Both the position numbers and the translations under genes were made by a program. The notes beneath the pieces are model-generated. The model saw only the letters and a list, made by a program, of their open reading frames with translations. It did not search any database and was not told the origin of the DNA. Shown piece by piece: positions 1 to 56,910 of a DNA stretch of 64,000 nucleotides (positions are counted from its first letter, which is position 1; every line of letters begins with the position of its first letter). Source of the stretch: Oecophyllibacter saccharovorans (GTDB lineage: Bacteria; Pseudomonadota; Alphaproteobacteria; Acetobacterales; Acetobacteraceae); assembly GCF_006542375.1 (NCBI RefSeq), contig NZ_CP038143.1, positions 496,001 to 560,000 on the forward strand. The letters run 5' to 3'.

Positions 1-1
1 A

Positions 2-130
2 GCGCGTCGTTTTATGTCCTTGGATAAGACCTCAGAGTTCACAGGCGCACAACGCATGCCGTTACCTTCCCTCGCCGAATGGGCGAAGGATGTCGTCACT
101 TCGCAGGTGCCTGCCAACGGACACAGCTGA
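2..130 (+). CDS. cas7e: Cas7e (CasC), C-terminal end only
   Basis: An open frame enters from the left edge and stops at TGA 128-130, giving about 42 residues. The stop overlaps the ATG of cas5e (TGATG), the coupling expected of the Cascade backbone gene that precedes cas5e in type I-E operons. The identity rests mainly on position: the short fragment carries no diagnostic motif. Cas7e coats the crRNA spacer as a multi-copy backbone. The rest of the gene, and any cse1, cse2 or cas3, lie outside the window. Confidence 0.7.
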   Translation, partial: ARRFMSLDKTSEFTGAQRMPLPSLAEWAKDVVTSQVPANGHS

Positions 131-960
131 TGCGGTTTCTGGCTCTCAACCTGCAAGCCCCGCTCGCAAGCTTCGGCGGCACGACCGTGGATCATTATGG
201 AATCACACGTCTCTTCCCGGCTGCCTCAATGTTAACCGGGCTGCTTGGCAACGCACTCGGCTACCAACGTTCGGAAGCAGAAAAACTGATGGAGCTGCAG
301 GAACGTCTGATTTTCGGCGCCTTCTATCGCGAGACATATCCTGAGCAGATCCGCGATTACCAGACCGTACAGCTACGTGGCGAAACCAGCTGGACCACTG
401 ATGGAACACGTGCGGAACGAAAAGGCGCCAGCGGAGACAGCACGCATATCCGTTATCGTGATTATCTCACTGATCTCGACCTTTATGTCGTGCTTGCTCT
501 CACAGCCGCTGAAAAGTCCCCGACACTCGATAACCTGGTTCAGGCGCTGGAACAGCCGGCACGACCGCTGTCGCTCGGGCGCAAAACCTGCCTGCCTTCT
601 GAACCGCTGCTACTTCCCCCGGCCCTGCGCTTCCAGGAAGCTGCCACTCCTGCAGAAGCCGCGCTGAATCTGGCGCGCGCCCTGCCTTTTCGCAAGCGCG
701 AGAAAGAGGCTGAGGCAAAAAAATATAACCGGAATGTTTCCCCCGCCATTCATCTCATGCGTCCCGCTCTGCCTGCCGAACGGGCCCTGACCGATACCCG
801 GGCTCTTCCGCCTGCAGGCCTCGCAACGATCACGGATGAACGGAACTGGCAGGGAGGCTTTCATGGCGGTAGCCGCCAGATCGTAATTGAGAAACTGCCG
901 ATCAATACGGAATCAATTGAAAAAGAAATCCCGATCGGCATCTCGGGAGAGCCGACATGA
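130..960 (+). CDS. cas5e: Cas5e (CasD), Cascade subunit, type I-E
   Basis: A 276-residue RAMP-family protein that caps the 5' handle of the crRNA in Cascade. The N-terminus MRFLALNLQAPLASFGG is typical of Cas5e, followed by a tract that includes the conserved SLGRKTCLPS stretch. A longer frame begins at ATG 79, but ATG 130 sits on the TGATG overlap with the upstream gene and gives the family-typical N-terminus. The 3' end overlaps cas6e by 4 bases (ATGA). It belongs to one co-transcribed interference and adaptation operon reading rightward. Confidence 0.9.
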   Translation: MRFLALNLQAPLASFGGTTVDHYGITRLFPAASMLTGLLGNALGYQRSEAEKLMELQERLIFGAFYRETYPEQIRDYQTVQLRGETSWTTDGTRAERKGASGDSTHIRYRDYLTDLDLYVVLALTAAEKSPTLDNLVQALEQPARPLSLGRKTCLPSEPLLLPPALRFQEAATPAEAALNLARALPFRKREKEAEAKKYNRNVSPAIHLMRPALPAERALTDTRALPPAGLATITDERNWQGGFHGGSRQIVIEKLPINTESIEKEIPIGISGEPT

Positions 961-1694
961 CAGCTGCTGCTCCAAAATCTTTCTACCTACTGCATGCTCC
1001 ACTGAATTCCAGGCAGTTGATGCAGTGGACAGCCGACCAGATATCGGAAGGCCAGACCCCCGATTACGGTCTGGCTCTGCACCGCCTGCTTTCGGCCTCA
1101 TTCGGCAAAGGCGTGGTCCAACCTTTCCGACTGTTTTCACCGCGCGCTGGCAAGTGGGCTCTTTACGGCTACAGCGATCACGATGCCCAGGCTCTTCAGG
1201 AAATTGCGCGCGACTGCGCGCCACCCGAGATTGTCGGGGTTCTGGACGTCCCACAGCTACGCTCCAAGGAAATGCCGTTCTATTTCCCGGTCGGTAAGGA
1301 ACTCGGTTTCGACGTTCTGGTACGTCCGACCCGACGATTCAAAAACGATGCCGGCAAGATGGTCGAAAGAGACGCCTGGCTATGCAAGCTGGAAGAAGCC
1401 AAGAAGGCCAACCTGTCCATCCCGGCGCGGGAAGCTGTCTACCAGGACTGGCTGCGTGAACGGCTGCATCCTGCCGCCACACTTGAAGCTTGCCAGATGA
1501 AAGACTTCCAGCGCGTTCGTGGCAATCGCGATGGTCGCAGAGTGGAGGGACCAAACGTGACTTTTCATGGAAACCTGCGCGTTCAGGAACCGGCAGCCTT
1601 CGCGGAGCTCCTGCGCAAAGGCATCGGACGTCACCGGGCCTATGGTTACGGTATGGTCCTGCTCCGCCCCGTCAACAAAAATGTAATGCCCTAA
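957..1694 (+). CDS. cas6e: Cas6e (CasE), crRNA-processing endoribonuclease
   Basis: A 245-residue protein that cleaves pre-crRNA at repeat hairpins and stays bound to the 3' handle. The C-terminal glycine-rich loop GIGRHRAYGYGMVLLRP (residues about 221-237) is the RAMP signature. His42 in DYGLALHRLL lies where the catalytic histidine of Cas6e is expected (E. coli His20 by position in the first helix); this alignment is by eye. It overlaps cas5e by ATGA, and 66 bases separate it from cas1e. The gene looks intact, so loss of function is not evident at the protein level. Confidence 0.92.
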   Translation: MTAAAPKSFYLLHAPLNSRQLMQWTADQISEGQTPDYGLALHRLLSASFGKGVVQPFRLFSPRAGKWALYGYSDHDAQALQEIARDCAPPEIVGVLDVPQLRSKEMPFYFPVGKELGFDVLVRPTRRFKNDAGKMVERDAWLCKLEEAKKANLSIPAREAVYQDWLRERLHPAATLEACQMKDFQRVRGNRDGRRVEGPNVTFHGNLRVQEPAAFAELLRKGIGRHRAYGYGMVLLRPVNKNVMP

Positions 1695-1760
1695 TCACAG
1701 ACACGCGTCCCAGCCAATAAAAAGCAGGGTTTCCTGCTGGGAAACAAGGAAGCAAGTATC

Positions 1761-2642
1761 ATGCTGAAAGGCCGCCTGGGGCTCGAGAGTTCGCGCATTC
1801 CCCATGCAGACCGGGATGGCCTGCTCTATCTGGAGATGGGCGTTCTGGCGTCCAAAGATGGAACCCTGATCTTCAGGCGCAATCTGGAGGAAGCCAGCCT
1901 GCCACCAGGCGATTACGGTATTCCTGTGCAAGGTCTCTCCATGATTCTCCTGGGCCCTGGCGGCAGCGTCACCCAGGATGCGCTCCGTCTGCTCGCACGT
2001 GCCAATACAGCCCTCATAGCGGTCGGACGGGACGGAGTGCGCTGCTACTCAGCCCCACCCCTGCTCAGTGATCATTCCACCCTGGCCCGTGCCCAGGCCG
2101 CTGCCTGGGCCCATGAGCCCAAACGCCTGCACGTTGCACGGCGGATGTATGCCTGGCGCCTTGGCGAAGTACTGCCTTATCGTGATATTGCAGCCCTGCG
2201 CGGCATTGAGGGCGCGCATATGCGTACGTCCTATAAAATCATTGCTGACCGGGTCGGTATCAAATGGCAGGGGCGTCGCTATGACCGCGCCAATCCTCTG
2301 GCGGCGGATCTTCCCAACCAGGCGCTCAACCATGCTGCCACCGCAGTAGAAGCAGCTGCCATGATCGCAGTCTATGCGACAGCCACTCTCTCACAGCTCG
2401 GTTTCATTCATGAAGATTCAGGGCTGTCCTTCATTCTCGACATTGCTGATCTCTACCGCACGGAAATCACTATTCCCTGCGCTTTTCACGCTGCCCGTGA
2501 ATGTGCGCAGGGCAAAGGGGATATCGAACGTCTGGCGCGCCAGAAAACCGGCTATGCCCTCAGACACCAGAAAGTCATTCCGTCCATGATCGAGAAGATC
2601 AAGCTCCTGTTCGAAAATACTGACGCCCCTATAAAGGCCTGA
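1761..2642 (+). CDS. cas1e: Cas1e, spacer-integration nuclease/integrase
   Basis: A 293-residue Cas1 of the I-E type, which with Cas2 forms the integrase that inserts new spacers at the leader end of an array. Candidate metal ligands are all present: Glu150 (GIEGAH), His217 (GFIHED) and Asp227/Asp230 (LDIADLYR), matching E. coli Glu141, His208 and Asp218/Asp221 by order and spacing. ATG 1761 follows a purine-rich stretch. It lies 4 bases upstream of cas2e, so the two are translated together. The adaptation module therefore appears catalytically intact although no array follows it here. Confidence 0.95.
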   Translation: MLKGRLGLESSRIPHADRDGLLYLEMGVLASKDGTLIFRRNLEEASLPPGDYGIPVQGLSMILLGPGGSVTQDALRLLARANTALIAVGRDGVRCYSAPPLLSDHSTLARAQAAAWAHEPKRLHVARRMYAWRLGEVLPYRDIAALRGIEGAHMRTSYKIIADRVGIKWQGRRYDRANPLAADLPNQALNHAATAVEAAAMIAVYATATLSQLGFIHEDSGLSFILDIADLYRTEITIPCAFHAARECAQGKGDIERLARQKTGYALRHQKVIPSMIEKIKLLFENTDAPIKA

Positions 2643-2646
2643 CCCC

Positions 2647-2967
2647 ATGCCGATGACCATCATCGTTACCCATAATGTGGAAGGTCGCTACCGGGGATAT
2701 CTGACGTCCATCATGCTGGAGGTCTCGGCTGGCGTTTATATCGCACCGCGTATGACGGCAGGCGTGCGGGAACGGACATGGCTTGTCATGACAAAATGGT
2801 ATGAGGCACTTGGCAACGGCACCCTGCTCCTGGCCTGGCCTGACAAACATGCTCCCAGCGGCGTGGGCCTGAAGCAGCTGGGTGAAACCCCGCGTGAGAT
2901 CATAGACGTGGACGGTGTTTATCTTCTGCGCACCCTCCCAGCTGAAAGCGGGCTTTCCGTATGCTGA
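2647..2967 (+). CDS. cas2e: Cas2e, adaptation complex subunit
   Basis: A 106-residue I-E type Cas2 beginning MPMTIIVTHNVEGRYRGYLTSIMLEVSAG and carrying the family-typical RERTW and LLAWPD strands. It bridges the two Cas1 dimers and has a structural role in spacer capture. It is the last cas gene. In a standard I-E locus the leader and array follow this gene, and here they do not (see the next entry). Confidence 0.93.
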   Translation: MPMTIIVTHNVEGRYRGYLTSIMLEVSAGVYIAPRMTAGVRERTWLVMTKWYEALGNGTLLLAWPDKHAPSGVGLKQLGETPREIIDVDGVYLLRTLPAESGLSVC

Positions 2968-3156
2968 GGATGATAAAAAAAACTGAAGGCACTGGTCTCT
3001 AAAACTGCTTTTTAATGTCGTTTTTAAAGAGTGTGCCTTGACCGGGCAAACCCTGTATCAGGTGCAAGCTGAGTTCGACTTGAGAGGCTCAGTGCTCTAC
3101 CCTGATCTTCTCCGAATTCTGTCCGCCAACTTCCCCTGCTCAAGGAAGACATCCGA
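2968..3156 (+). other. Leader-like AT-rich stretch after cas2e, no array
   Basis: These 189 bases sit where a type I-E leader and array would normally start. Bases 2968-3030 are A/T-tract rich (runs of A and two TTTTTAA-type blocks), unlike the GC-rich surroundings. No direct repeat of 20-40 bases with regular spacing is visible between here and the phospholipase D gene at 3157. AAGGAAG near 3143 is the ribosome binding site of that next gene. Confidence 0.6.
3031..3052 (+). repeat. Possible single decayed I-E CRISPR repeat
   Basis: A 22-base segment begins GTGTGCC and ends CGGGCAAACC, and is preceded by TTTAAAGA. Type I-E repeats known to me are about 28-29 bases, begin GAGTTCCCC or GTGTTCCCC, and end CGGGGATAAACC. 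The segment keeps both ends and lacks part of the central stem. It lies at the leader-repeat junction position. It is a single copy and could be chance. Confidence 0.3.
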
Positions 3157-4698
3157 ATGACCCGTTTTCGCCTGCCATCCGTGAAATGTCTTCTGGAACG
3201 CCCCTCCAAAGCTCGTGAATACATCCAGCCGCGTGATGGCTCAGACCGAGGGCTCCTGAAGAAAGTCAGGCAGGTGGAAAAAGACGCCCATGCTGCAACG
3301 CCGCTGCATGCAGCTCTGCGCTGCCTGCGGCTGGCGGCGGCGCTGGGGGTGACGGTTCATGCGCTGCTGACCAAACGTAACACGGCTGCCGCAACGGGGT
3401 GGATCAGCTTCTGCTGGAGCCGCCCCCTGACAGGCACGCTCCTCTATCTGACCTTCGGCATCAACCGTGTGCAGCGCAAGGCCCAGCGCCTGATGGACCG
3501 TTGCGTCATTCCGCCTTCCCCCTCCCTGGATGCGCTCAGCTGCAAACCCGCACCCGAGTTCCGGCCCCTGAACCGCATGCTGGACCTCATCACGCCCTAT
3601 CCCCTGCTGGGCGGCAATCAGGTCAACTGGTACAAAAGCGGCGATACCGGATATCCGGCCATGCTCGAAGCCATCAACCAGGCGGAAAGCTATGTCGTCC
3701 TGTGTTCCTACATCTTCCGTTATGACCTGGTCGGCAAGCAGTTCGTCAAAGCGCTGGGGGATGCGGTCGCACGCGGGGTGGAGGTACGTGTTCTCGTTGA
3801 TGGCTGGGGAAGCGGCTATTTCTATTGCCCGATCCAGAAGGCCCTGGAAAAGGTCGGCGTGCCCTGCGCCCGTTTCATGCATTCCTTCCTGCCCTGGCGC
3901 ATGACCTTCATCAATCTGCGCAATCACCGCAAACTGCTGGTTGTTGACGGCAAGGTCAGCTTCACCGGCGGTATGAACATCCTGCAGGAAGCCCTGATGG
4001 ACCTGCCGCAGAAGCATCACGTGGCTGATACCGCCTTCCGCCTGATCGGCCCGGTCGCCCTGCAGCTGATGGATGCCTTCGCCCGTGACTGGGCGTTCAC
4101 CACGGGAGAAATCCTGTCAGGACCGAAATTCTACCCCAAGCCTCCCACCCCGGGGAAAGTGCCATCCCGCGTCGTAGCTTCCGCGCCGGATGCCGATATG
4201 GGGAAAATCGAATACACGATTCTGCAGGCTGTGATCCTGGCTCAGCGTCACGTCTGCCTCATGACCCCTTATTTCATCCCCGATGCCCGTCTTGCCAGCG
4301 AACTGGCGCTAGCTGCCCTGCGCGGGGTAAGGGTCGACCTCATCGTGCCCCATCACAGCAACCACCACTTTGTGGATGACGCGCGTAACTTCTATCTCAA
4401 GCCCCTGGTCAAGGCCGGCGTGCATGTCTGGTTTGGCGGCGCGCCTTTTGACCATTCCAAGCTGATGACGGTGGATGGCCTGTGGAGCCTGGTCGGGAGC
4501 GCCAATCTTGACCCGCGCTCCCTGCGGCTCAATTTCGAGTGTGACGCCGCCCTCTACGACCAGGAAATGGCCGGCACCTTGCTGGATTACATGGAAATGC
4601 GCCGCGGCGAAGAACTGACCCTGGCCGATATCAAGCGCTGGCCGCTCTGGGTCAAGCTACGCAACGCCACCTGGCGGCTTCTCTCACCCTATCTCTGA
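3157..4698 (+). CDS. Phospholipase D / cardiolipin synthase-like protein
   Basis: A 513-residue membrane-associated PLD-superfamily enzyme, most like bacterial cardiolipin synthases, which condense phosphatidyl groups through a phosphohistidine. Both HxK(x)4D motifs are present: HRKLLVVD followed by GGMN, and HSKLMTVD followed by GSANLDPRS. An N-terminal hairpin (about residues 55-105, with ALLTKRNTAAATGWISFCW and GTLLYLTFGINRVQRKAQ) resembles the membrane anchor of Cls proteins. AAGGAAG sits 8 bases before ATG 3157. It lies between cas2e and mcrB; a defence role is possible but nothing in the sequence shows it, and a lipid-synthesis role is the default reading. Confidence 0.85.
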   Translation: MTRFRLPSVKCLLERPSKAREYIQPRDGSDRGLLKKVRQVEKDAHAATPLHAALRCLRLAAALGVTVHALLTKRNTAAATGWISFCWSRPLTGTLLYLTFGINRVQRKAQRLMDRCVIPPSPSLDALSCKPAPEFRPLNRMLDLITPYPLLGGNQVNWYKSGDTGYPAMLEAINQAESYVVLCSYIFRYDLVGKQFVKALGDAVARGVEVRVLVDGWGSGYFYCPIQKALEKVGVPCARFMHSFLPWRMTFINLRNHRKLLVVDGKVSFTGGMNILQEALMDLPQKHHVADTAFRLIGPVALQLMDAFARDWAFTTGEILSGPKFYPKPPTPGKVPSRVVASAPDADMGKIEYTILQAVILAQRHVCLMTPYFIPDARLASELALAALRGVRVDLIVPHHSNHHFVDDARNFYLKPLVKAGVHVWFGGAPFDHSKLMTVDGLWSLVGSANLDPRSLRLNFECDAALYDQEMAGTLLDYMEMRRGEELTLADIKRWPLWVKLRNATWRLLSPYL

Positions 4699-4761
4699 AC
4701 GCACCCGCCTTCAGAAAGGTCAACGCCTGCTCCCACCCCTGCTGCCGGAAAGGGAGGTCTC

Positions 4762-6240
4762 ATGACAGAAAACGCATTCTCCCACCGTCCCGGACGCAGG
4801 AAATTCCGGCCTGGCTCCTTCACGCCCTCAGGCGGACAGGATGAAAGCGGGGCGGAAAACCGGACCTGGATCTGGGCACCCCCCAGCGAAGACGGGGACT
4901 GGGAAACATTTTATACTGACGGACTCATGGGGCTGCCAGGAGAAGAAACCGGGGACCTGAGCGTGCCTGAAAACCTGCTGCGTTTCCGAAGGGACGGGAA
5001 ATGGGCTGGAAGCGCGGGCAGGCTGCGCTGCCTTCTGGATCAGGTTCAACCAGGCGATACGATCTATGTCCGGCAGGGCCCCCGTGAAATCATAGGCCGC
5101 GGGATTGTCTCGGGCGATTACCGCTTCCTGCCCGCACAGGATGGTGCGCCGCATACGCGAAACGTCACCTGGACTCACAGGGGTCACTGGCCCTGGACCG
5201 CGCCTTCACCCCTGCCTCCGCAGTCCCTGGCCAGCGCTGACCATCGCAGAGCTGCTTTCGGAGAACTTGAAACACGCATGGGAATCGTATCCTTGACGTT
5301 TCCCGACAGCCCGGTCCAGCCCGCCCCCTTTACCCTGACCGAGGCGCTCCGGGACCTGTTTCTGCCAGGCGGACGTTTCGAGGAACTGCTGGAAATCTGG
5401 CAGAGAAAGAAGAACCTTATTCTTCAGGGCCCGCCCGGCGTCGGCAAGACCCATATCGCACAACGCCTGGCCTATGCCCTGCTGGGCCGCAAGGATCCTC
5501 AACGCCTTGAGCAGGTTCAGTTTCACCAGGCGTATGACTACGCCTATTTCGTGGAAGGCTATCAGCCGACCGAAGCCGGGGGGTTTTCTCTCAAACCCGG
5601 CATCTTCCGCACTTTCTGTGCCCGTGCTGCCAATCGCCCCACACAGCCGCATGTCTTCATCATTGATGAAATCAACCGTGGTAATGTAGCAGCCATTTTC
5701 GGCGAGCTCCTGTCCCTGATCGAGGCCGGCCACCGCGGCCGCAAGCATGCCCTTCCTCTTGCGGTCAGCCATACGCCCTTCCACATTCCGGAAAATGTCC
5801 ATCTTCTGGGGCTGATGAACACGGCTGACCGCAGCCTGATCGGGCTGGACCGCGCCTTGCGCCGGCGCTTTGCCTTTGCCACCCTCGCACCGGCCTTCAG
5901 TCATCCGGAATTTGCCAGCTTCCTGCAGAAACGCCAGATTCCGCTCTCACTCATCAGCCATATCCGGAGCTGCATCGCCGAGCTGAACGCCGAAATCTGC
6001 CGCGCGCCCCTGCTGGGCGAAGGTGCGCAGATCGGGCACAGTTTCTTCATCCCTGAAAGTGAGGTTGAAGATCCGGATGAATGGTACCGGCATATCATTG
6101 TGCATGAACTCCTGCCGCTTCTTGAAACCTACTGGCCCGGCGAACCGGAACGCCTGGCCACCCTGCGCCAGCAGCTGCTGAATATGCCTTCGTCCCCCAC
6201 TGCAGAATCAATACCCCTTCATGACAATACCGGTACGTAA
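4762..6240 (+). CDS. mcrB: McrB-like AAA+ GTPase of a type IV restriction system, with EVE-like N-terminus
   Basis: A 492-residue motor subunit. The AAA+ domain shows Walker A GPPGVGKT (223-230), Walker B with the McrB signature IIDEINRGN (300-308), MNTADRSL (352-359) and RALRRRF arginine-finger residues. The N-terminal part (residues about 34-145, with WIWAPPSEDGDWETFY and GLMGLPGEETGDL) resembles the EVE/PUA-like domain of McrB homologues, a fold used to bind modified bases; it is not the E. coli McrB DUF3578 type. GGGAGG lies 4 bases before the ATG. It overlaps mcrC by 20 bases. It is expected to cleave DNA with modified cytosines together with McrC. Confidence 0.92.
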   Translation: MTENAFSHRPGRRKFRPGSFTPSGGQDESGAENRTWIWAPPSEDGDWETFYTDGLMGLPGEETGDLSVPENLLRFRRDGKWAGSAGRLRCLLDQVQPGDTIYVRQGPREIIGRGIVSGDYRFLPAQDGAPHTRNVTWTHRGHWPWTAPSPLPPQSLASADHRRAAFGELETRMGIVSLTFPDSPVQPAPFTLTEALRDLFLPGGRFEELLEIWQRKKNLILQGPPGVGKTHIAQRLAYALLGRKDPQRLEQVQFHQAYDYAYFVEGYQPTEAGGFSLKPGIFRTFCARAANRPTQPHVFIIDEINRGNVAAIFGELLSLIEAGHRGRKHALPLAVSHTPFHIPENVHLLGLMNTADRSLIGLDRALRRRFAFATLAPAFSHPEFASFLQKRQIPLSLISHIRSCIAELNAEICRAPLLGEGAQIGHSFFIPESEVEDPDEWYRHIIVHELLPLLETYWPGEPERLATLRQQLLNMPSSPTAESIPLHDNTGT

Positions 6241-7360
6241 CATTTACTACATGCTGCTTTACGCCTGGGGCCTGTTCCGGGAAATCAATCCGGCCACCTC
6301 GGAACAGGAAACCGGAGCCTTCACTCATGGGAACTCCCTGCCCGTTCTGGTGGCCAGCGTTCTGGCGCGCGTGACCCGCCAGCAGCTCCAGAGTGCCCTG
6401 GCAGGCGGTTACGGGCCGCAGCATGCCGGTCTTTCCGCTCCCCGAGGTCGGATTGACCTGGCAGCAGTGGTCCGCAAGGGAGGGGCCCGGGAGAGCCTTC
6501 CCTGCGTGTTCGATGTCTATTCCAGTGATACGCTTCTCAACCGCCTGTTACTCGGCACGCTTCTGCAACTCACTGAAACGCCTGAGCTTCCGGCTCCGCT
6601 CAGACGAGAGCTGGCCGGTCTGGCCGCACAGTTCTCAGCGCTGACCCCGCTCGCCCCACAGCCGCAGCTCTTCGATCAGCTGCCTCCCCTGCCTGTATCT
6701 TCACGCTATCCCCTGCTCATGGCGCTCTGTCGTTTCTGGGCCGAGCAGCGCCAGCCCCTGGAAAACGGACGCGGCTTTCGTTTTCCGATTCCTGACCGCA
6801 CGCGCATGAGCGCCGTTTTCGAGAAGTTCCTGGGCAATTTCTACCGCCATGAAATGCAGGATATCCTTACAGATGTCGGTGCCCGACGCCTGAAATGGCC
6901 TTTGACCGGCCCGGATGCAGAGGATCTCCTGCCTGACATGCTGACTGATCTTGTCCTGCGCAGCGGCGAACGCACCCTGATCATTGAAGCCAAATTCTTC
7001 CGCCGCATTTTCCGGACACATTTCGCTGCTTCCTCCGCAACTGGCGAAGAAACGCTGACAGGCAAGCTCAATTCAGCCCATCTCTACCAGCTGGCCAGCT
7101 ACCGGCAGGCCTGGGAGCAGGCCGGCAACGGCCGGGCGGATGCCGCTTTGCTCTATGCCCTGCCGGGCCCGGCCACGCCTGGCCCTGAAGCGCTGTCGGT
7201 TGGCACAGGCGAATTCAGCCATCGCTTTCGTTGGAAAGGCCAGGAACCGGACTCAGACAAGGATCCGTATCTGTTTGTGCATGCTCTTTCCCTGGCGCAG
7301 CCCTGGCAGGCCATTGATGCCAGGCTCCGCAACCTGGTCGGAGACTGGCTGGCCAGCTGA
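6221..7360 (+). CDS. mcrC: McrC-like nuclease subunit
   Basis: A 379-residue protein that starts MTIPVRNIYYMLLYAWGLF, the characteristic N-terminus of McrC, which stimulates McrB GTP hydrolysis. A PD-(D/E)xK nuclease core is visible around residues 235-260: LTDLVLRSGE followed by LIIEAKFFRR, giving the Asp, Glu and Lys ligands. It overlaps the 3' end of mcrB by 20 bases and is probably translationally coupled, as there is no strong ribosome binding site. The pair is complete, and the downstream gene is convergent. Confidence 0.92.
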   Translation: MTIPVRNIYYMLLYAWGLFREINPATSEQETGAFTHGNSLPVLVASVLARVTRQQLQSALAGGYGPQHAGLSAPRGRIDLAAVVRKGGARESLPCVFDVYSSDTLLNRLLLGTLLQLTETPELPAPLRRELAGLAAQFSALTPLAPQPQLFDQLPPLPVSSRYPLLMALCRFWAEQRQPLENGRGFRFPIPDRTRMSAVFEKFLGNFYRHEMQDILTDVGARRLKWPLTGPDAEDLLPDMLTDLVLRSGERTLIIEAKFFRRIFRTHFAASSATGEETLTGKLNSAHLYQLASYRQAWEQAGNGRADAALLYALPGPATPGPEALSVGTGEFSHRFRWKGQEPDSDKDPYLFVHALSLAQPWQAIDARLRNLVGDWLAS

Positions 7361-7384: not shown

Positions 7385-8434
7385 TTACATGGAACCGTCT
7401 TTGCGCAGATGCAGCGTTTTGAGCGCGCTGAGCGGCAGTACCTCGATACTGAGGGTAAAGCGGGTATGGGTAACGGGATTCTGCATATGAATAATCTGGG
7501 TATGCCCCGCTGAAAGATTCATTTTCTGGACGGTAACCGCATAGGAAAGAGCTGGCACGGTGACCTGCAGGGGACCGTATTTTCCACCTGACCCATGCAG
7601 CGTGACACGTGTTCCGCTCCCGAAAGGATAATAGGCCAGAAAAGCCAGATCGACCTGAACGACGTCTCCATCCTGGTAAGGCGTGCCATCAGGCGTGGCG
7701 GCGACGCGCTTGCCGTCATGGAGCACGGCGCGGGGGGTGATATCGATGCGGTAGCCGCGCATGGAGAAACTGCGTTGCGTCGGCGTGTTGGGCATCTCAG
7801 GTGGCAGGCTTGCGATCATCATGTCTTCAAGCGGCTGCACACGCTTCTGGGAAAATTCCGACAGTCCGAACACCAGCCCCTTGCTTGGCGAGATCTCCTG
7901 CGCATAGGCGTTTTTCAGCGGCACCTTCTCACGGTAAGCCAGCAGGGTGGGATGGTCGGCATCCAACCCGATGGTATCGCCGGTCATGGGCGTCAGGCCG
8001 ACCAGATCGAGGACATGTCCATCAGTTCGGCGCAGGCTTGCACGCAGACGCAAGGGGATGTTTCGGATGTGAATCGATACCATCGGTCTGGAAGCGATCT
8101 TCTGCAGGTCCGGATCGCCGACTGGCGTCCCCCATCCCGTCAGATCCTCCTGCTGCGAGTTCGTATCCTGAGCAGCATTTGCTCCCCCCTGTGAGGAAGC
8201 AGATTTACCTTTGGCGCCAGTAGGCGGGCGCGTTTGCGCTGCCGTCCGGCCTGGCTGAGGACTAACTTGCTGCTGGGCAGGGTTATGTGACGTTTCCCCA
8301 TTGGCCCCGGCAGCTGCAACAAACAGGCTGAACGCCCCAAGACCCAAGATGATTTTCACCTTCGCCGGCGCCCGGCAAAGCGATCCGTCATGGTTGAGAT
8401 TCAGACTGAAAGCACGCTTGAACGCAGGGCGCAT
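7385..8434 (-). CDS. Secreted protein of unknown function
   Basis: A 349-residue protein I do not recognise. The frame is open further upstream, but ATG 8434 follows AAGGAAAG at 8 bases and puts a signal-peptide-like segment (ILGLGAFSLFVAAAGANGE) near the N-terminus. A Gln/Ser/Pro-rich linker (about residues 60-110) leads to a folded region with beta-rich patterns and no catalytic motif I can name. It is probably periplasmic. It ends 24 bases from convergent mcrC and lies 178 bases downstream of the NADAR gene on the same strand, too far to be sure of an operon. Confidence 0.7.
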   Translation of the reverse strand: MRPAFKRAFSLNLNHDGSLCRAPAKVKIILGLGAFSLFVAAAGANGETSHNPAQQQVSPQPGRTAAQTRPPTGAKGKSASSQGGANAAQDTNSQQEDLTGWGTPVGDPDLQKIASRPMVSIHIRNIPLRLRASLRRTDGHVLDLVGLTPMTGDTIGLDADHPTLLAYREKVPLKNAYAQEISPSKGLVFGLSEFSQKRVQPLEDMMIASLPPEMPNTPTQRSFSMRGYRIDITPRAVLHDGKRVAATPDGTPYQDGDVVQVDLAFLAYYPFGSGTRVTLHGSGGKYGPLQVTVPALSYAVTVQKMNLSAGHTQIIHMQNPVTHTRFTLSIEVLPLSALKTLHLRKDGSM

Positions 8435-8612: not shown

Positions 8613-9329
8613 TCAGAAAAGCGCCAGCTGTGCACCCGGTGCCGGCTCTGGAGGAGCATACCGGGCTGTATCCAACTGCGTTACAGTCGCCTTGAACACC
8701 TCATAGCTCTCGAGCGCCTGCTCCAGCACTCCCCTCTGCTTGAGCGCCACCATCAGGGCCACGCTTCCTGCCTGGCAGGTCGGGGAATGCTCCGGGTTGA
8801 GCGTCACTTCCGTGAAACCGTTATAAGTGGAAAGCTGCATCCAGTCCTGTGGTGTAAGGATGGGAAAGGCTGCAGAAATATAGAGAAAGTCATATCCTGA
8901 CAGCGGCTCATATGTCTTCCCCTCCAGTCGCGCGCCGATGAGAGGACCGTTCACACGGCGCCAGTGACGCGGATCTTTAAGCGATTCCCAGGGGGGAAGA
9001 TGAAAGAGCTCTGGAAAGGGACCGCCCTTTTCCAGGACCTTGCTGCCATTCCAGAGGCTTTCGTAACTGGTTCGGATGTTGCCCTGTGGGGTCTGCACTT
9101 CGCATGAAAGATTGAAGGGGCTGAGACGCTGGCCCAGCGGATGCAGGCTCTTGGTGGAAATATCCAGCACCCGGGAAATGCCCAGAGCCTGCGCCTTTTC
9201 GTGAAGGACCCGCACATTGGCGCGCTTTTCAGCGGGAGTCTGCCAACCCTGCCAGGGAAAGGTGATGGTGACTTCCTCAACCAACCTCTCCCCTTGGCGC
9301 TGAGGCACGTAAAGGATGCGTTCTGCCAT
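8613..9329 (-). CDS. NADAR-family protein (DarT1-antitoxin type), likely ADP-ribosylglycohydrolase
   Basis: A 238-residue protein whose pattern I recognise as the NADAR/DUF6977 type found as antitoxin to DarT1: SRVLDISTKSLHPLGQRLSP then FNLSC, then WNGSKVLEKGGPFPEL, DPRHWRR, PLIGARLEGK, a FLYISAA strand, and GFTEVTLNPEHSPTCQAGSV near the C-terminus. Family members remove ADP-ribose from modified guanine bases in DNA. This match is from memory of the family. GGGAGGAAGG precedes ATG 9329, and the gene starts 15 bases after the exonuclease stop. No DarT-like ADP-ribosyltransferase is visible in the window, so it is orphaned from the usual toxin partner. Confidence 0.65.
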   Translation of the reverse strand: MAERILYVPQRQGERLVEEVTITFPWQGWQTPAEKRANVRVLHEKAQALGISRVLDISTKSLHPLGQRLSPFNLSCEVQTPQGNIRTSYESLWNGSKVLEKGGPFPELFHLPPWESLKDPRHWRRVNGPLIGARLEGKTYEPLSGYDFLYISAAFPILTPQDWMQLSTYNGFTEVTLNPEHSPTCQAGSVALMVALKQRGVLEQALESYEVFKATVTQLDTARYAPPEPAPGAQLALF

Positions 9330-9344
9330 GGCCTTCCTCCCTGT

Positions 9345-9941
9345 TCAGCTCCCGTTTTCCGCCAGGCTGCGCAGGTGGAAATAAACCCGCCTGCATGCCT
9401 GGACATCAGCCATTGCATCATGGGCATTCACCAGCTTTTCACCAAAGAAATGCCGCATGCATTCCTCCAGCCGCGGCGGCTTGGGGCCTCGCCGCCCCTT
9501 GGCCAGCATCGAAGGCGTGGGCGGCAGCGCCAGCACTGCGCTGGCTGCCTGCATGGTGCAGACCTGGCTGGACGGCAGTTGCCAGTCCGACCGGCCGGAA
9601 CGGGCATACATTGTGGCCATGATCCTGCAGTCAAAAGCCACGTTGTGCCCGATTACCCGGTCTGCCTGCTGCGCCAGGTCATGGAACAACTCCGCAGCCA
9701 GTGCTTCCCGCACGCCATAACGCTGTGCCTTTTCGGTCGTGATACCGTGAATGCGGGTGACAAAAGACGGAATATGCCAACCTTCCGGCCGGATCAGCAC
9801 GTTGATGGCTGAGATCTCTTCACCCAGATCATCGGTCAGAACAGCTGCCAGCTGAACGCAATGCGGCTGGGCCGGGTCGTCAACAGCGCGCCGGGCTGAA
9901 GGCAGACCTGTCGTTTCCGTATCAAAAAAGAGCAGCGCCAT
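9345..9941 (-). CDS. DnaQ-like 3'-5' exonuclease (DEDDh)
   Basis: A 198-residue exonuclease-domain protein. Exo I is FFDTETTG (Asp7, Glu9), Exo II is IGHNVAFDCR, and Exo III ends in NAHDAMADVQA with the His and Asp of the DEDDh class. An upstream in-frame start exists but runs into the repressor gene; ATG 9941 has GGGGAG 5 bases before it and starts the domain at once. It lies 31 bases after the repressor and 15 before the NADAR gene, all on the minus strand, so the three are probably one operon. It is not the polymerase III epsilon subunit itself: it is short and lacks a recognisable alpha-binding tail. Confidence 0.88.
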   Translation of the reverse strand: MALLFFDTETTGLPSARRAVDDPAQPHCVQLAAVLTDDLGEEISAINVLIRPEGWHIPSFVTRIHGITTEKAQRYGVREALAAELFHDLAQQADRVIGHNVAFDCRIMATMYARSGRSDWQLPSSQVCTMQAASAVLALPPTPSMLAKGRRGPKPPRLEECMRHFFGEKLVNAHDAMADVQACRRVYFHLRSLAENGS

Positions 9942-9972
9942 ATGAACTCCCCACCTGTACCGGGACCGCCGG

Positions 9973-10659
9973 TTACAGGCGCCGTGCGAACCAGACCACC
10001 CGCCCCAGGATCTGAACGTCTTCCGCCAGGACGGCATAGGTGGAGAAACGTTCGTTTTCAGACTTGATCCGAAACATGGCCGGATCGCTGCCATGCACCC
10101 GCTCCACCCATTTGCAGACGATACCATCCCCATCAAAGAGGACGAAAATACCCGGCTCAATCACATTGTTGCGGCGCCGATCGATGAGCACCACATCACC
10201 GTTCTGCAGAACCGGCTCCATGGACTGCCCCTCCACCTCGATCACCCGCAGATCGGAAGGCTTGGCCCGCAGTTCATTGCGCACGAAGCTTTCTTCAAAA
10301 TATTTCGGCCCGCCCAGGCAGTCGCCTTCCACAAAGCCGCCGCCCCCCATGCCGGCACGAACGGAAATAAAGGGAACGGCCACATAGCCTTCCGGGCTGT
10401 CGATTCGGGTCACTTCCGGCAGGTCAGCTGAAGCCGCCCGGCTGTCTTCCATCATCAGCAGCCATTGCGGTGTCACCTTAAGATGGGGGGCCAGCAGTTC
10501 AGCCCATTCAGGACTGAGCCGGGTCGTCCCCCGCATCAGCTTGTAGATGTTTTGCTTGGTGGTGCCGGCCAGATCGGCCAGGGCCTTCTGGCCCAGGTTG
10601 CACTGCCGCATTCGGCTTTCAAGGCGTTTGGCCCTGCTCTGGCGCGGATCGGCATTCAT
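9973..10659 (-). CDS. HTH / S24-peptidase repressor (LexA- or CI-like)
   Basis: A 228-residue regulator. Residues about 12-65 form an XRE-type helix-turn-helix (LGQKALADLAGTTKQNIYKL). The C-terminal S24 peptidase has Ser146 in EGQSMEP and Lys183 in GIVCKWVE as the catalytic dyad, and Ala102-Gly103 in SVRAGMGGGG as a likely self-cleavage site. Such proteins are inactivated by RecA-stimulated self-cleavage during DNA damage. AAGGAAG precedes ATG 10659. It heads the exonuclease-NADAR operon, and a palindrome in its promoter suggests autoregulation. It is phage-repressor-like, but no phage genes are nearby. Confidence 0.9.
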   Translation of the reverse strand: MNADPRQSRAKRLESRMRQCNLGQKALADLAGTTKQNIYKLMRGTTRLSPEWAELLAPHLKVTPQWLLMMEDSRAASADLPEVTRIDSPEGYVAVPFISVRAGMGGGGFVEGDCLGGPKYFEESFVRNELRAKPSDLRVIEVEGQSMEPVLQNGDVVLIDRRRNNVIEPGIFVLFDGDGIVCKWVERVHGSDPAMFRIKSENERFSTYAVLAEDVQILGRVVWFARRL

Positions 10660-10724
10660 GAACTTCTTCCTTTCATTTTCGCTCCTCCGACTTGCCGGAA
10701 CCTCCAGAATATCAGAGCCTTCAC

Positions 10725-10741
10725 GTAACCTTATAAGTTAC
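10725..10741. promoter_or_regulatory. Putative operator/promoter of the S24 repressor operon
   Basis: A 17-base inverted repeat reads GTAAC-CTTATAA-GTTAC, about 65 bases upstream of the repressor ATG. On the minus strand its centre reads TTATAAG, a plausible -10 element. An operator over the promoter is what an autoregulated LexA/CI-type gene would have. Its use by this repressor is inference. Confidence 0.45.
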
Positions 10742-10866
10742 TGCACGAATCCGGTCCAGTTATCCAGCCTTGACTTTACGTCTTTTTCTGCCGCTTTTTC
10801 CCCCATCAAAGTCGCGTCTTTCCCAGCCCCTTGCGACATTCCAGACGATATTCCAGGAAACCGCCG

Positions 10867-40922: not shown

Positions 40923-42380
40923 ATGTCCGGCCCCACCCTCCGCGAGGCCAGCCGGGTTGAAAGCACCCTTGATGAGGTCGACCTCTCCACCCTGACCGAC
41001 GCCGCCTGCGCCGCCATTCTGGACGGCGCCACGCTTGACTGGACCTACCCGCCGGAACGCGGGGTGCTGGAGCGTTATTTCAACGGGCTGGTGCACACGC
41101 CGGGCCGTGCTTTCTTCGTGGTGCGGGGTGATGAGGGTGCAGTGTGCGGCGCAGGCATTCTGGCCTTTCCGGGCGGCGGGACGACCCTGCGCCCCAAAAC
41201 ACGCGCCAAGCTGCTCCGCGCCTTCGTCGCCCCTTATGCGCGCAACAAGGGGCTGGGCACGCTGCTGGTGGAGGAAATGATTGCCACCGCCGGCGCCAGG
41301 GGCGCGCAGGTGCTGGATTGCGAAGTGCCTGAAACCTGCCAGGCTGCCGCCCATCTGCTGGAAAAACTGGGCTTCCAGCATTTCGGCACCCATCCCTGCT
41401 ACCAGCGCCTGGGCGGCAAGAACATTCAGGGGCTCTACTTCACCCGGATTCTTTCCCCCGCCTCTATTGATCCGCCAGCGCATGAGGAGCCCGATCCAGA
41501 AGCTGGGCCAGAGGGAGAGGCCGCCTTCACCCTACCAACGCCCTCTTCACCGAAAAGCCCCGTTCCGATGCCTGAGCCCACCCAAGCTGCCCCTTCGACC
41601 CTGCCTGACAGACCTGAACGCCCGCGCCTGGCCCTCTACCCTGCCATCGACCTCAAGGAAGGGGCCTGCGTGCGCCTGCGCCAGGGCGAGATGTCAGACG
41701 CATTGCATTATTCCGATGATCCCGCCGCCCAGGCCCGCGCCTTTGCCCAGGCCGGTTGCCGGCACCTGCATGTTGTGGACCTGGATGGCGCCTTTGCCGG
41801 CCAGTCAGCCAACGGGGCGGCGGTCGAGGCCATCCTCAAAGCCACTTCCCTGCCCGTGCAGCTGGGCGGGGGCCTGCGTGACATGCGCAGCATCGAGCGC
41901 TGGCTGGAGGCCGGGGTCAGTCGCGTCATCCTGGGCTCGGCAGCCGTCAAGGACCCCGGGCTGGTCCGCCAGGCCGCGCGCGCCTGGCCCGGCCGTATCG
42001 TTGCCGGCATTGATGCCCGGCACGGGCGCGTGGCAACGGAAGGCTGGGCGGAGGTCTCCGAGCTGACCGCGCCCGAGCTGGCGCTGCGCATGGAGGAGGC
42101 CGGGGTGGCAGCAGTGATCTTCACCGAGATCACCCGCGACGGCATGCTGGAAGGGCTGGACCTCGACCAGACGGTGGATCTGGCAGCACGCCTCAATATT
42201 CCTGTCATCGCCAGCGGCGGCGTGGGCACGCTTGCGCATCTGCGCGCCCTGAAGGCGCGCGCCTGTGCTTTGCCCAAAAGCGGCGCAGGCGGCCTTGGCG
42301 GCGTGGTGGTCGGCCGCGCGCTTTATGACGGGCGCATCGGGCTCAAGGAAGCGCTGGACGTATTGGACGGCCCATGCTGA
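40923..42380 (+). CDS. hisA: GNAT acetyltransferase fused to HisA
   Basis: A single 485-residue frame. Residues 1 to about 177 are a GNAT acetyltransferase ([20 protein letters not shown] is the acetyl-CoA loop). Residues about 178-234 are a Pro/Glu/Ser-rich linker. Residues about 235-485 are HisA, the phosphoribosylformimino isomerase: [40 protein letters not shown] and [16 protein letters not shown] 41568 (MPEPTQ) in the linker could start HisA separately. Sequence alone does not show whether the fused protein is made or HisA is translated from within. Confidence 0.88.
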
Positions 42381-43135
42381 AACTGCGCGTCATCCCCTGC
42401 CTGGATGTGCGTGACGGGCGCGTGGTGAAGGGCGTCAACTTCGTCTCCCTGCGCGATGCGGGCGACCCGGTCGAGCAGGCCAGGGTTTATGACCGGGCCG
42501 GAGCTGACGAGCTTACCTTCCTTGATATCACCGCCAGCACGGATAACCGCGGCACGATCCTGGACGTGGTGGAACGCACAGCAGCGGAGATCAACCTGCC
42601 GCTGACGGTTGGCGGCGGGATCAGGGAATGCGGCGATATCCGCAACCTGCTGCTGCGCGGGGCCGATAAATGCGCCATCAATTCCGCAGCCCTGCGCCGC
42701 CCCGAGCTGATCAATGAAGCGGCCGGGCGGTTCGGCAGCCAGTGCGTGGTGGCAGCAATCGACGCACGTGCTGACGGGCGCGGCGGCTGGGAAGTCTTTG
42801 CCAGGGGCGGGCGCGAACCCACAGGCATTGACGCCGTTGCCTGGGCACAGGAGCTGGCTGAGCGCGGTGCAGGCGAGATCCTGCTGACCAGCATGGACCG
42901 CGACGGCACCCGCTCAGGCTTTGACCTCGAGCTGCTCAAGGCGGTCTGCGCGCGCGTCAACGTGCCTGTGGTCGCTTCAGGCGGCGTAGGCACGCTGGCG
43001 CATTTCGTCGAAGGCGCGCAGGCAGGTGCTAGCGGCTTGCTGGCAGCCAGCGTGTTTCACTTCGGGCGGTTTCAGGTGCAGGATGTCAAACAGGCCCTGG
43101 CCGATGCCGGCCTGCCCACCCGCCTGGGGCGCTGA
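42374..43135 (+). CDS. hisF: HisF: imidazole glycerol phosphate synthase, cyclase subunit
   Basis: A 253-residue (beta/alpha)8 enzyme. It begins [20 protein letters not shown], with the catalytic Asp in CLDV and a second Asp in [17 protein letters not shown]. Phosphate-binding loops VGGGIR and [11 protein letters not shown] are present. It overlaps the HisA frame by 7 bases. It forms the cyclase half of the HisHF complex. Confidence 0.97.
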
Positions 43136-44292: not shown

Positions 44293-45405
44293 TTACAACT
44301 TAAACCCCGTAAATTTCACAACATTAGAAGGAAAAGGTGGAACAGAGAAGTTTGTGATTTTCTTAAATAATCTAGGGGTCATTCCAATTGTAGATATAAT
44401 ACCATACAATCCTATTATATCATTATTTTCCAAATACGTAAGAGCATTTTGCATTAATTCAGCCTGTTCAGGTTTAATTTCACTATCAAATTTTTCCACT
44501 TTAGTTTGACCGGTTTTGGTTAAATGTATATTACCCGTACGATATTGATTGGCATCAATCATACCAAGATCAAAAGCACGTCGGAGTATTGCTCTAACGG
44601 ATACTCCCCAACGTAGTTTCATAGTAAAAATCCCATTCCAATCAAGCAACCGCCGGGTTCTAGGAAATTCTTTTAAAAAGGCTTTACGCGGAATAAGAAA
44701 AGCACTGGCAAAGCGATGAGCTTGTCCTTCAGTAAACTTATCTCCAGTAATTATTCCTTGATGCATGATAAGATGGCCTGCTTCATGAGCTAAATCAAAA
44801 CGAAGCCGGACTGCAGCAACTTTCGCACTCGAGCGAACGATAATTGGGCGGCGTCTTGAAATAGACAATGCATCAATTCGATCTGAAATATCATCAAAAT
44901 GAGCAACAACCGCGCCTGCATTTTCAACAACCCGAGTCATGTTTGTAATTGGCGCATCTAGGCCAAGTCCCCAATAACGCCTTGCATTCTCAGCAATTTT
45001 CTCGACTTCTTCAAAAGAAATTGGGTTGGCAGCCTCGGGAAAATTCACGGTCGGCAAACGAAGCTGCCCGTCTAGCGCTTCAACGATAGTTTCCAAAATC
45101 GTACCACGGGCTGCAGCTTGGGCAAGAATGCTTCGAGGAGCTGTGGCAAGGCGTCGAAAATGACAGTCCTCCGTCTGTACAGCTCTCAAATTCGAAGTGC
45201 CAAAAAATATTTCTGTAACTTCAAGAACAGCTTCAAGCGCTTTACGTAATTCATCAGCCGGTTCTTTAGCTCCAGTTTCTAACTGATGTAAAAACTGACG
45301 ACTTACCCCAACAAGCTTACCAAGCTCCTCAAGTGAAAGTCTGGCTAACATACGGGCAAGGCGTAGCTTCTCTCCATAAAAAGGACGTAGATATAGCTCG
45401 TTCAT
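44293..45405 (-). CDS. XRE HTH + ImmA/IrrE metalloprotease (peptidase M78)
   Basis: A 370-residue protein. Residues about 12-68 form an XRE helix-turn-helix (LARLSLEELGKLVGVSRQFL), and residues about 130-260 an ImmA/IrrE domain with the zinc motif HEAGH at 207-211. The last 90 residues (TGQTKVEKFDSEIKPEQAEL onward) are AT-coded and unassigned. Such fused regulator-proteases act as antitoxins, phage repressor controllers or stress sensors. It follows its partner by 67 bases. Codon use is AT-rich compared with the neighbours. Confidence 0.85.
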   Translation of the reverse strand: MNELYLRPFYGEKLRLARMLARLSLEELGKLVGVSRQFLHQLETGAKEPADELRKALEAVLEVTEIFFGTSNLRAVQTEDCHFRRLATAPRSILAQAAARGTILETIVEALDGQLRLPTVNFPEAANPISFEEVEKIAENARRYWGLGLDAPITNMTRVVENAGAVVAHFDDISDRIDALSISRRRPIIVRSSAKVAAVRLRFDLAHEAGHLIMHQGIITGDKFTEGQAHRFASAFLIPRKAFLKEFPRTRRLLDWNGIFTMKLRWGVSVRAILRRAFDLGMIDANQYRTGNIHLTKTGQTKVEKFDSEIKPEQAELMQNALTYLENNDIIGLYGIISTIGMTPRLFKKITNFSVPPFPSNVVKFTGFKL

Positions 45406-51896: not shown

Positions 51897-54800
51897 ATGA
51901 AACTTGGGCGTAGGCAATTTCTCCGTGGCGCAGGCACATGCGTGGCCGGGGCCAGCGCGTTGGCGCTGGGCTTCACCCCTCCCTTCGCCCGCGCACAGGA
52001 AACCCGGGAATACAAGCTCCTGCAGGCCAAGCAGACGCGCAACAACTGCTGCTACTGCTCGGTCGGCTGCGGCCTGCTCGTCTATGGCATCGGCGACGGC
52101 GCCATCAACTCGCAGGAATCGATCTTCCATATTGAAGGTGACCCGGACCATCCGGTCAGCCGCGGCTCCCTGTGCCCCAAGGGCGCGGGCCTGATCGACT
52201 TCATCCATTCCGAAACGCGCCTGCAGTATCCTTCCTACCGCGCGCCCGGCAGCAAGGAATGGAAGCGGATCTCCTGGGATGAGGCCACGAGCCGCATCGC
52301 CCGCCTGCTCAAGGATGACCGCGACAAGCACTTCATCACCCATAATGAGAAGGGCGAGCTGGTCAATCGCTGGCTGTCGACCGGCATGCTGGCTTCCTCT
52401 GCCGCCTCCAACGAGACCGGCACGCTGGACTGGAAGTTCGCGCGCGCCATGGGGATGCTCTGCTTCGACAACCAGGCCCGCACCTGCCACGGCCCGACAG
52501 TGGCCGCCCTCGGCTCGACCTACGGCCGCGGCGCCATGACCAACAACTGGGTGGATATCAGAAACGCCAACACGGTTCTGGTGTTCGGCGGCAATGCGGC
52601 CGAAGCGCATCCCGTCGGTTTCAAATGGGCTGTACAGGCCAAGATCAACAACGGTGCCAAGCTGATCGTGGTCGATCCCCGCTTCAACCGTACCGCGGCC
52701 GTGGCCGACCACTACGTACCGATCCGCGCCGGCTCCGATGCCGCCTTCCTGCTGGGCATCATCAATTATCTGCTCACGCATGACCGCATCCAGCACGAAT
52801 ATGTGCGTGCCTACACCACCGCTTCGCTGCTGGTGCGGCCTGATTACAGCTTTGAGGACGGCCTCTTCTCCGGCTACCGCCCGGGCGAGATCGGCCCCAA
52901 GACCTACGACAAGACCTCCTGGAACTACGAGCTGGATGAGCACGGTTTCGCCAAGAGCGATCCCACCCTCCAGAATCCACGCTGCGTCATCAATCTCCTG
53001 CGTGAGCATGCAGCCCGCTTCACGCCCGAGGTCGTGTCCGAGATCTGCGGCACGCCGATAGAAGGGTTCAAGCTGGTCTGTGAGGCGCTGGCTGAAACCT
53101 CAGTGCCTGAGCTGACCACGACCTGGCTTTACGCGCTCGGCTTCACCCATCACACCAACGGCTCGCAGGTCATCCGCGGGGCGGCCATCATCCAGCTGCT
53201 GCTGGGCAATGTCGGCATGCCGGGCGGCGGCGTGAACGCCCTGCGCGGCCACTCCAACATTCAGGGCTATACCGATCTCGGCCTGCTGTCGCTGCGCATG
53301 CCCGGCTACATGAACCTGCCCATGGACAGCCAGCAGGACATGAACGTCTATCTCAAGGAACAGACAGTCGAGCCGGAGCTGCCAGACCAGGTTGATCTGT
53401 GGCGGAACTTCCCTGAATATTTCGTCTCGCTGATGAAAGCGCTGTGGGGCGACAAGGCCACCAAGGCCAACAACTGGGGTTATGACTGGCTGCCCAAATG
53501 GGACCAGAGCTACGATCTCCTCCACGTTCTGGAGCGGATGCGCCACGGCAAGATGACGGGCTATCTGGCCCAGGGCTTCAACCCGCTCGGTTCCGCGCCT
53601 GACAAGAACTACACCACCCAAGCGCTGTCGCAGCTGAAGTTCCTCGTCACGATGGACCCGCTGGACACTGAGACGTCCAATTTCTGGCAGCATACCGGCG
53701 AATACAACGACGTGCCGACGGAAGAGATCCAGACCGAGGTCTTCCGCCTGCCGACTACGTGCTTCGTTGAGGAATACGGCTCCATCGTCAACTCGGCCCG
53801 CTGGCTGCAGTGGCACTGGAAAGGCGCCAATGCGCCTGGCGAATCCTGGTCGGACGCCAAGATTCTCAGCGCGATTCTCATGAAGATGCGCGAGCTGTAC
53901 CGCAAGGAAGGCGGCGCGTGCCCCGAGCCGATCCTCAACATCTCCTGGAACTACCAGAACCCGCTGGAGCCCCAGCCTGAGGAAGTGGCCAAAGAGAACA
54001 ACGGCTACGCCCTGGCTGATCTCTATGACGAACACGGCAAGCTGATCGCCCGTCGCGGCGAACTGCTCTCGGATCCGCTGCATTTCCGCGCCGATGGCAC
54101 CACCGCTTCCTTCAACTGGGTGTTTGCGGGCTCCTGGACGGAAGCCGGCAACCAGATGGCGCGCCGCGACAATACCGACACGGGCTGGGGCTGCACGCCG
54201 GGCTGGGCATGGTCCTGGCCTGCCAACCGCCGCATTCTCTACAACCGCGCCTGTCTGGACCCGATGGGCCGCCCGTGGGACCCCAAGCGCCGTTACCTGT
54301 ACTGGGACGGCCAGAAATGGACCGGTGCCGACAATCCGGATTATCCGCTGCATTCCCCGCCGGGCAGCGGCGTGGGCCCCTTCATCACGCTGGCCGAGGG
54401 ACGCGGTCGCCTGTTCTCGTGCACGTCTCTGGTGGATGGGCCCTTCCCCGAGCATTACGAGCCGATGGAAACGCCGCTCTCGCACTTGCCCTACCCCACC
54501 AAGTCGCTGCATGACCCGGCAGTGCGCATGTATGCCGATGCCCGCGCGCGCCTCGGCAATGTGGAGCACTTCCCCTACGTGGCCACGACCTACTCCATCA
54601 CGGAGCTGTTCCGCACCTGGACGAAGCATGCGCGCATCAACGCCATCCTCCAGCCCGAGCAGTTCATCGAGATCAGTGAGGAACTGGCCGACAAGCTGGG
54701 CATCGGCATCGGTGACATGGTGAAGGTCTCCTCCTATCGCGGTTACATCAAAGCCGTTGCCGTGGTGACCAAGCGCCTGACCCGCCTCGATGTCATGGGC

Positions 54801-54956
54801 AAGTCCCTTTACCAGATCGGCGTGCCGAGCAACTGGGGCTTCAAGGGTGCAACCAAACCGGGCTTTTTGAGCAACACGCTCACGCCGGCCGTCGGGGACG
54901 CCAACACCCAGACGCCAGAGTTCAAGGCCTTCCTTGTCAATGTTGAAAAAGCTTAA
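51897..54956 (+). CDS. fdnG: Formate dehydrogenase-N/O alpha subunit (molybdopterin, Cys form)
   Basis: A 1019-residue periplasmic catalytic subunit that oxidises formate. The Tat signal is [11 protein letters not shown] 4Fe-4S site follows in [14 protein letters not shown] with SLCPKG. The Mo ligand position in [16 protein letters not shown] is Cys197, coded TGC at 52485, where E. coli FdnG and FdoG have selenocysteine; so this is the Cys form and needs no SECIS element. AGGAT precedes ATG 51897. The beta subunit gene follows by 17 bases. Confidence 0.95.
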
Positions 54957-54973
54957 GGTTTGAGGGACGAAAG

Positions 54974-56029: not shown

Positions 56030-56044
56030 GGAAGGTTTGGGGAC

Positions 56045-56728: not shown

Positions 56729-56814
56729 GCCCGGAAATACGCCTTCCGGCTGCCAGACAGCGCTCTCGCCTTTTCCTTGTTCCTGTGGGACACCAGGTGA
56801 GAAAATATTCCAGA

Positions 56815-56840
56815 GGGCCCGCAGACTGCCGGGCCCTTTT
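56815..56840 (+). terminator. Terminator between fdnI and fdhE
   Basis: GGGCCCG (56815-56821) pairs with CGGGCCC (56830-56836) around an 8-base loop, followed by TTTT. It would cut fdhE expression below that of the structural genes, or leave fdhE to its own promoter. Confidence 0.8.
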
Positions 56841-56910
56841 CTGTATCAGGCTCTGATATGGAAAACTCTTCCCCGCCAACCCCTATTCCACGCCTGACCG
56901 CGGAGCCCTT

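Follow-up and report, generated by a model that had tools for sequence, protein, structure and literature searches.

A phage-type S24 repressor gene, a DEDDh exonuclease gene and an orphan NADAR gene in an operon-like arrangement in Oecophyllibacter saccharovorans

In the NADAR protein of Escherichia coli C7, residues E88, K95 and D171 are required for hydrolysis or rescue, K115 is required in vivo for rescue from DarT1, and changes at D171 or K115 abolish rescue (PMC11543638). Rescue from DarT1 toxicity by non-cognate NADARs is also possible, and NADARs of the YbiA type carry Glu at the third catalytic position (PMC11543638). YbiA hydrolyses guanosine-ADP-ribose in vitro and fails to rescue DarT1 toxicity; the roles of bacterial NADARs outside DarT operons are considered an open question (PMC11125620). 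A gene of this kind is found in a 64,000-nucleotide stretch of the O. saccharovorans genome (contig NZ_CP038143.1, positions 496,001 to 560,000; hereafter the window), together with genes for an S24 repressor and an exonuclease. The original prediction treated the three as a damage-response unit that repairs ADP-ribosylated DNA.

Layout and identity of the three genes

The trio occupies 8613-10659 on the minus strand, and its tight spacing, 31 and then 15 bases between neighbouring genes, is as predicted. It is composed of an S24 repressor gene (9973..10659; 228 aa), a gene for a DEDDh (DnaQ-like) 3'-5' exonuclease of the phage recombination-module type (9345..9941; 198 aa) and a gene for an orphan NADAR protein (8613..9329; 238 aa). 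On reading the sequence, plausible ribosome-binding-site-like sequences precede the trio genes, and the ATG start of the exonuclease gene follows the Shine-Dalgarno-like GGTGGGGAG. We infer that the repressor, exonuclease and NADAR genes are co-transcribed. A six-codon reading frame (ATGAAAGGAAGAAGTTCATGA) is also present on the minus strand at 10656-10676, with GGAGG ahead of it, and overlaps the S24 start codon as ATGA; it could possibly encode a leader peptide.

The exonuclease matches RNase_T (PF00929, E=2e-17) and contains all five residues of the DEDDh motif, four acidic residues and a His (D7, E9, D104, H174, D179), so that its assignment as a DEDDh exonuclease holds. DNA polymerase III epsilon, or DnaQ proper, was considered and rejected, with scores of 25.8 bits against 196 and 23.1 bits against 222.7 for the equivalog models. 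The protein falls into phrog_192 (E=4e-37) and is 54.5% identical to the DnaQ-like exonuclease of Komagataeibacter phage phiKX1. Relatives in phiKX1 and at two further loci (L100, L102) lie near RecT-like genes, RecT being identified by eye, and apparently chromosomal copies occur in three genomes (G029, G115, G066) among unrelated neighbours.

The repressor combines HTH_3 and Peptidase_S24 domains (E=4e-13), and the Ser146/Lys183 pair expected of a self-cleaving S24 protein was found where predicted. These two residues and the candidate cleavage site, Ala102-Gly103, align with the same residues in 8 homologues. The protein matches phrog_4 (E=6e-36), is 50-55% identical to proteins on three IMG/VR contigs and about 30% identical to the D3112 c repressor, and its helix-turn-helix is 434-repressor-like, with PDB matches to the 434 repressor. 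It is a repressor of the phage CI type, not LexA; the label "LexA-like" of the original prediction had to be given up, as the score of 18.9 bits is far under the TIGR00498 cut-off of 110.95. No protein over this cut-off was found in the O. saccharovorans genome, where the top match, at 18.8 bits, is the S24 repressor itself, and a LexA over cut-off was found in 64 of 80 relatives. Two other genomes, G029 and G032, both of about 1.9 Mb, are likewise without a LexA over the TIGR00498 cut-off, and loss of LexA may accompany genome reduction in the Acetobacteraceae. The alphaproteobacterial LexA box GTTCN7GTTC is absent from the trio locus; its sole match in the window, at 404-418, is at chance level.

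A damage-inducible operon remains plausible, given that the residues for self-cleavage are intact; self-cleavage of the repressor is plausible as well, and RecA would stimulate it. Since the genome has no LexA, the repressor may act as the lone local damage switch. Upstream of its gene, the palindrome GTAAC-N7-GTTAC (GTAACCTTATAAGTTAC; 10725..10741) is a candidate operator. It is the only exact match within the 64 kb, the pattern having been chosen after the site was seen, and 0.22 matches with up to one mismatch are expected over that length. A candidate sigma-70-like promoter on the minus strand (10730..10758) is made of TGGACC (10758-10753), a 17-nt spacer and TATAAG (10735-10730), the last of these inside the palindrome. 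This promoter agrees with the consensus at 9 of 12 bases; it was picked by eye and was missed by a scan demanding T at position 6. The position of the palindrome over the promoter would fit self-repression.

The orphan NADAR and its relatives

As predicted for 8613-9329, the product belongs to the NADAR family. It matches PF22397 (NADAR-DarT1) over residues 2-215, scoring 196.7 bits where 27 is the cut-off (E=4.3e-58), and its closest solved relative is the NADAR of Geobacter lovleyi (8bat, E=6e-28); chance would not produce matches of this strength. Among other Pfam families at E<=1, only PF22075 was returned, under threshold, and no further NADAR family. A predicted structure, built from a two-sequence alignment, reached a pLDDT of 42 and was not used.

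No DarT (PF14487) was found in the whole 1.94-Mb, two-contig genome, so that the predicted absence of DarT near the NADAR gene is borne out and extends to the entire genome. PF22397 was detected in 2 of 299 Acetobacteraceae genomes, the present one and a second (G066), in 5 of 385 genomes of the class sample (one hit being a fragment) and in 9 of 398 of the phylum sample, the same two being counted in both. It occurs on 28 plasmids, and a scan of genome contigs gave one locus, a DarT-linked pair (L003). No relatives were found in phages and IMG/VR. Apart from the two in Acetobacteraceae, 22 full-length members were inspected in their genomic surroundings (L003, L058, L059, L061-L067, L105-L116), and in 21 of them DarT adjoins NADAR (tblastn, five DarT queries). 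The exception, L066, contains a NADAR of family PF22397 at 1474-2187 with no DarT in the roughly 1.5 kb that flank it on each side, and retains the Asp and the Lys. It is probably a gammaproteobacterial orphan and, having DarT1-type residues, is an orphan of a second kind. In G066, a search at the locus found DarT, S24 and exonuclease genes all absent from the positions adjacent to NADAR.

The NADARs of O. saccharovorans and G066 (hereafter the two orphans) are 52.5% identical. Because this identity spans genera and both reading frames are intact, selection rather than decay is suggested. In a maximum-likelihood tree they form a separate clade (support 100/100) whose stem measures 2.06 changes per site; the tree was rooted by a midpoint guess, and both descent from DarT1-linked proteins and an earlier branching fit it.

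The C7 residues were mapped by alignment with 8bat and other members, the C7 sequence itself being left out; the spacings E88-D171 (83) and K95-K115 (20) hold in most other members, including 8bat. All 23 other family members and both orphans have equivalents of E88 and K95 (E90 and K97 in O. saccharovorans). At the position of D171, which is Asp in all 23 others, both orphans have Glu (E174 in O. saccharovorans), and at that of K115, Lys in 22 of the 23, both have Leu (L117). The equivalent of E173 is Thr (T176) in the O. saccharovorans protein. Both orphans also depart from the other members at further near-invariant positions, among them 29 (G to W), 94 (Q to N) and 177 (F to L).

These replacements bear on the idea that the protein is a solitary antitoxin, directed against incoming DarT1-type toxins or serving as an anti-addiction function against DarTG1 plasmids. 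Its PF22397 score far above cut-off would agree with such a role, and so would the abundance of DarT1-NADAR pairs on plasmids, including those of Alphaproteobacteria, and the ability of non-cognate NADARs to rescue DarT1 toxicity (PMC11543638). However, both altered sites are among those essential in C7 (PMC11543638), YbiA, which also has Glu, gives no rescue (PMC11125620), and the stem of the orphan clade is long; we regard a solitary antitoxin as hardly probable. With D171 as Glu and K115 as Leu, protection against DarT1-like toxins is unlikely, and the earlier suggestion that the unit acts against foreign DarT-like toxins was not upheld. The orphan NADAR is not a standard DarT1 antitoxin. 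Activity on guanine-ADP-ribose is plausible by analogy, because YbiA, with the same Glu, has such activity. The parsimonious prediction from the residues is an active de-ADP-ribosylase, or a related N-glycosidase, whose substrate is not the DarT1 lesion.

Recurrence of the trio and its neighbourhood

Recurrence across genera had been set beforehand as support for a functional unit. It was not seen: the trio is present in 1 of 299 Acetobacteraceae genomes, that of O. saccharovorans, which is the sole member of its genus in the sample, and the relatives of its genes have other neighbours elsewhere. None of the loci examined, whether from the samples of the family, class and phylum, from plasmids or from viral contigs, contained the trio again or any two of its genes side by side, and those examined for the repressor or the exonuclease contained no second trio member. 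The relatives of these two genes are mostly carried by phages and prophages. The original prediction stands as to gene identities, operon-like layout and absence of DarT; a coherent repair unit against DarT-like toxins is supported neither in its DarT part nor by recurrence.

The three genes could then be accidental neighbours, with a phage repressor and a recombination exonuclease left over from a mobile element beside an orphan NADAR and no function in common. The single occurrence in the family sample speaks for this, as does the finding that the best relatives of the repressor and the exonuclease belong to different phages or prophages and, in the loci examined, are never adjacent to each other or beside NADAR; the neighbouring mcrBC and cas genes, moreover, mark a defence-rich region. 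Against it stand the common strand, the short gaps and the plausible ribosome-binding sites, and an intact phage repressor without recognised adjacent phage genes suggests that regulation was retained. In G066, 15 kb separate an exonuclease homologue from the orphan NADAR, which gives a weak hint of linkage; such nearness has a chance of about 1.5% in a 2-Mb genome and was noticed after the fact. On balance, accidental grouping is possible and on the unlikely side.

A common insertion site in the two genomes was considered and rejected, the sister NADAR of G066 being located between hisF and fdhF; the window has its hisF at 42374 and its formate dehydrogenase gene at 51897. G066 keeps the order of the his genes and of the formate dehydrogenase cluster (window 40923-43135 and 51897-57864, compared with L034), and the stretch from hisF to the dehydrogenase is variable: NADAR occupies it in G066, and the window has an HTH-led gene there (44293-45405).

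On the opposite strand, the operon is preceded by cas genes, a cardiolipin-synthase-like gene and mcrBC. The cas5, cas6, cas1 and cas2 genes (79..2967, plus strand) are of type I-E, with TIGR01868, TIGR01907, TIGR03638 and TIGR01873 all above cut-off; no CRISPR array was detected in window positions 1-4800, though one may be present beyond the window. The mcrB and mcrC genes (4762..7360, plus strand) match PRK11331 (McrB, E=2e-75) and PRK09736 (McrC, E=5e-55), neither reaching its equivalog cut-off. A minus-strand gene with no recognised family (~7385-8335) separates mcrC from NADAR, and permease and envelope genes lie past the operon. Beside restriction and CRISPR genes, a defence role of the operon is compatible with the data, not proven. 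One form of it would be a lysogenic-conversion-style operon, comparable with lambda cI-rexAB, in which exonuclease and NADAR act on phage nucleic acid or ADP-ribose signals. A phage-type repressor does head the operon, type I-E cas genes and mcrBC adjoin it, and NADAR-domain proteins have been named among defence proteins (PMC13092281). However, no phage genes or phage remnant were recognised beside the operon, and the second orphan NADAR, in G066, has another context, which makes this scenario improbable.

Proposed operon and comparison with known systems

The explanation preferred here, tentatively and with somewhat less than even confidence, is a lineage-assembled, autoregulated and probably damage-inducible operon made of a phage-type S24 repressor, a phage-derived exonuclease and a diverged orphan NADAR. 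In its favour, the genes share a strand with tight spacing and ribosome-binding-site-like sequences, the self-cleavage residues are kept across repressor homologues, and the palindrome overlaps the -10-like hexamer. LexA is missing from this genome and present in 64 of 80 relatives, and the orphan clade has full support, a long stem and both key residues altered. The explanation is weakened because the trio occurs in one genome only, so that the grouping may be accidental, because the G066 sister NADAR is without an adjacent S24 or exonuclease gene, because promoter and operator were both chosen by eye, and because D171 substitutions abolished rescue in the C7 enzyme.

The operator, the damage induction and the NADAR substrate in this operon model are all putative. 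In unstressed cells, an S24 dimer would occupy the palindrome overlapping its own promoter. Once RecA forms filaments on single-stranded DNA, these would stimulate self-cleavage of the repressor and so derepress the operon. The NADAR, with its YbiA-like catalytic Glu, would then cleave ADP-ribose from a nucleic-acid guanine or from a small ADP-ribose derivative, and would not act as a DarT1 antitoxin. The exonuclease would trim 3' ends, any link of this step to the NADAR reaction being hypothetical. A stronger version, held to be doubtful, is that, in this bacterium lacking LexA, a LexA-independent operon under a self-cleaving phage-type repressor reverses nucleic-acid ADP-ribosylation through a new NADAR subfamily, which would have a YbiA-like Glu where DarT1 antitoxins have Asp, and a different ADP-ribosylated substrate.

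What the locus adds is a small orphan clade of PF22397 whose catalytic Glu resembles that of YbiA, here under probable damage control of the phage type. The two residues tied to DarT1 antitoxin function are changed together in this clade and the general catalytic residues are kept, which offers a natural test of what those two residues specify; even if the grouping is accidental, this residue signature is still usable. Should the operon prove damage-induced, its NADAR would be the second, ybiA of E. coli being the first, to come under damage-responsive control, and this in a genome without LexA.

Compared with the DarT1-NADAR pairs of DarTG1, the O. saccharovorans protein belongs to the same Pfam family, PF22397, keeps the catalytic Glu and the phosphate-binding Lys, and is 28-40% identical to DarT-linked and other members. 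It differs in its D171 to E, K115 to L and E173 to T replacements and its separate clade, and its gene sits behind S24 and exonuclease genes in a genome without DarT. With E. coli YbiA it shares the NADAR fold and Glu at the third catalytic position, and also an operon under damage-responsive control, which is putative here and is provided for YbiA by the LexA-controlled dinG operon (PMC11125620). Unlike YbiA, it belongs to PF22397, has different partners and has a phage-type regulator encoded in its own operon. The LexA/SOS regulon has the S24 serine-lysine self-cleavage mechanism expected here, whereas the present repressor has a phage-type HTH, scores far under the LexA model cut-off and has no LexA box at its locus. 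The CI/c repressors of phages such as 434 and D3112 are similar in combining HTH and S24 domains with the Ala-Gly, Ser and Lys residues, but the O. saccharovorans repressor has no recognised prophage around it and heads a NADAR operon. Finally, the DnaQ-like exonuclease of phiKX1 is close to the present one in identity, as given above, and similar in length; it lies downstream of a RecT-like gene (read by eye), whereas the O. saccharovorans exonuclease follows a repressor.
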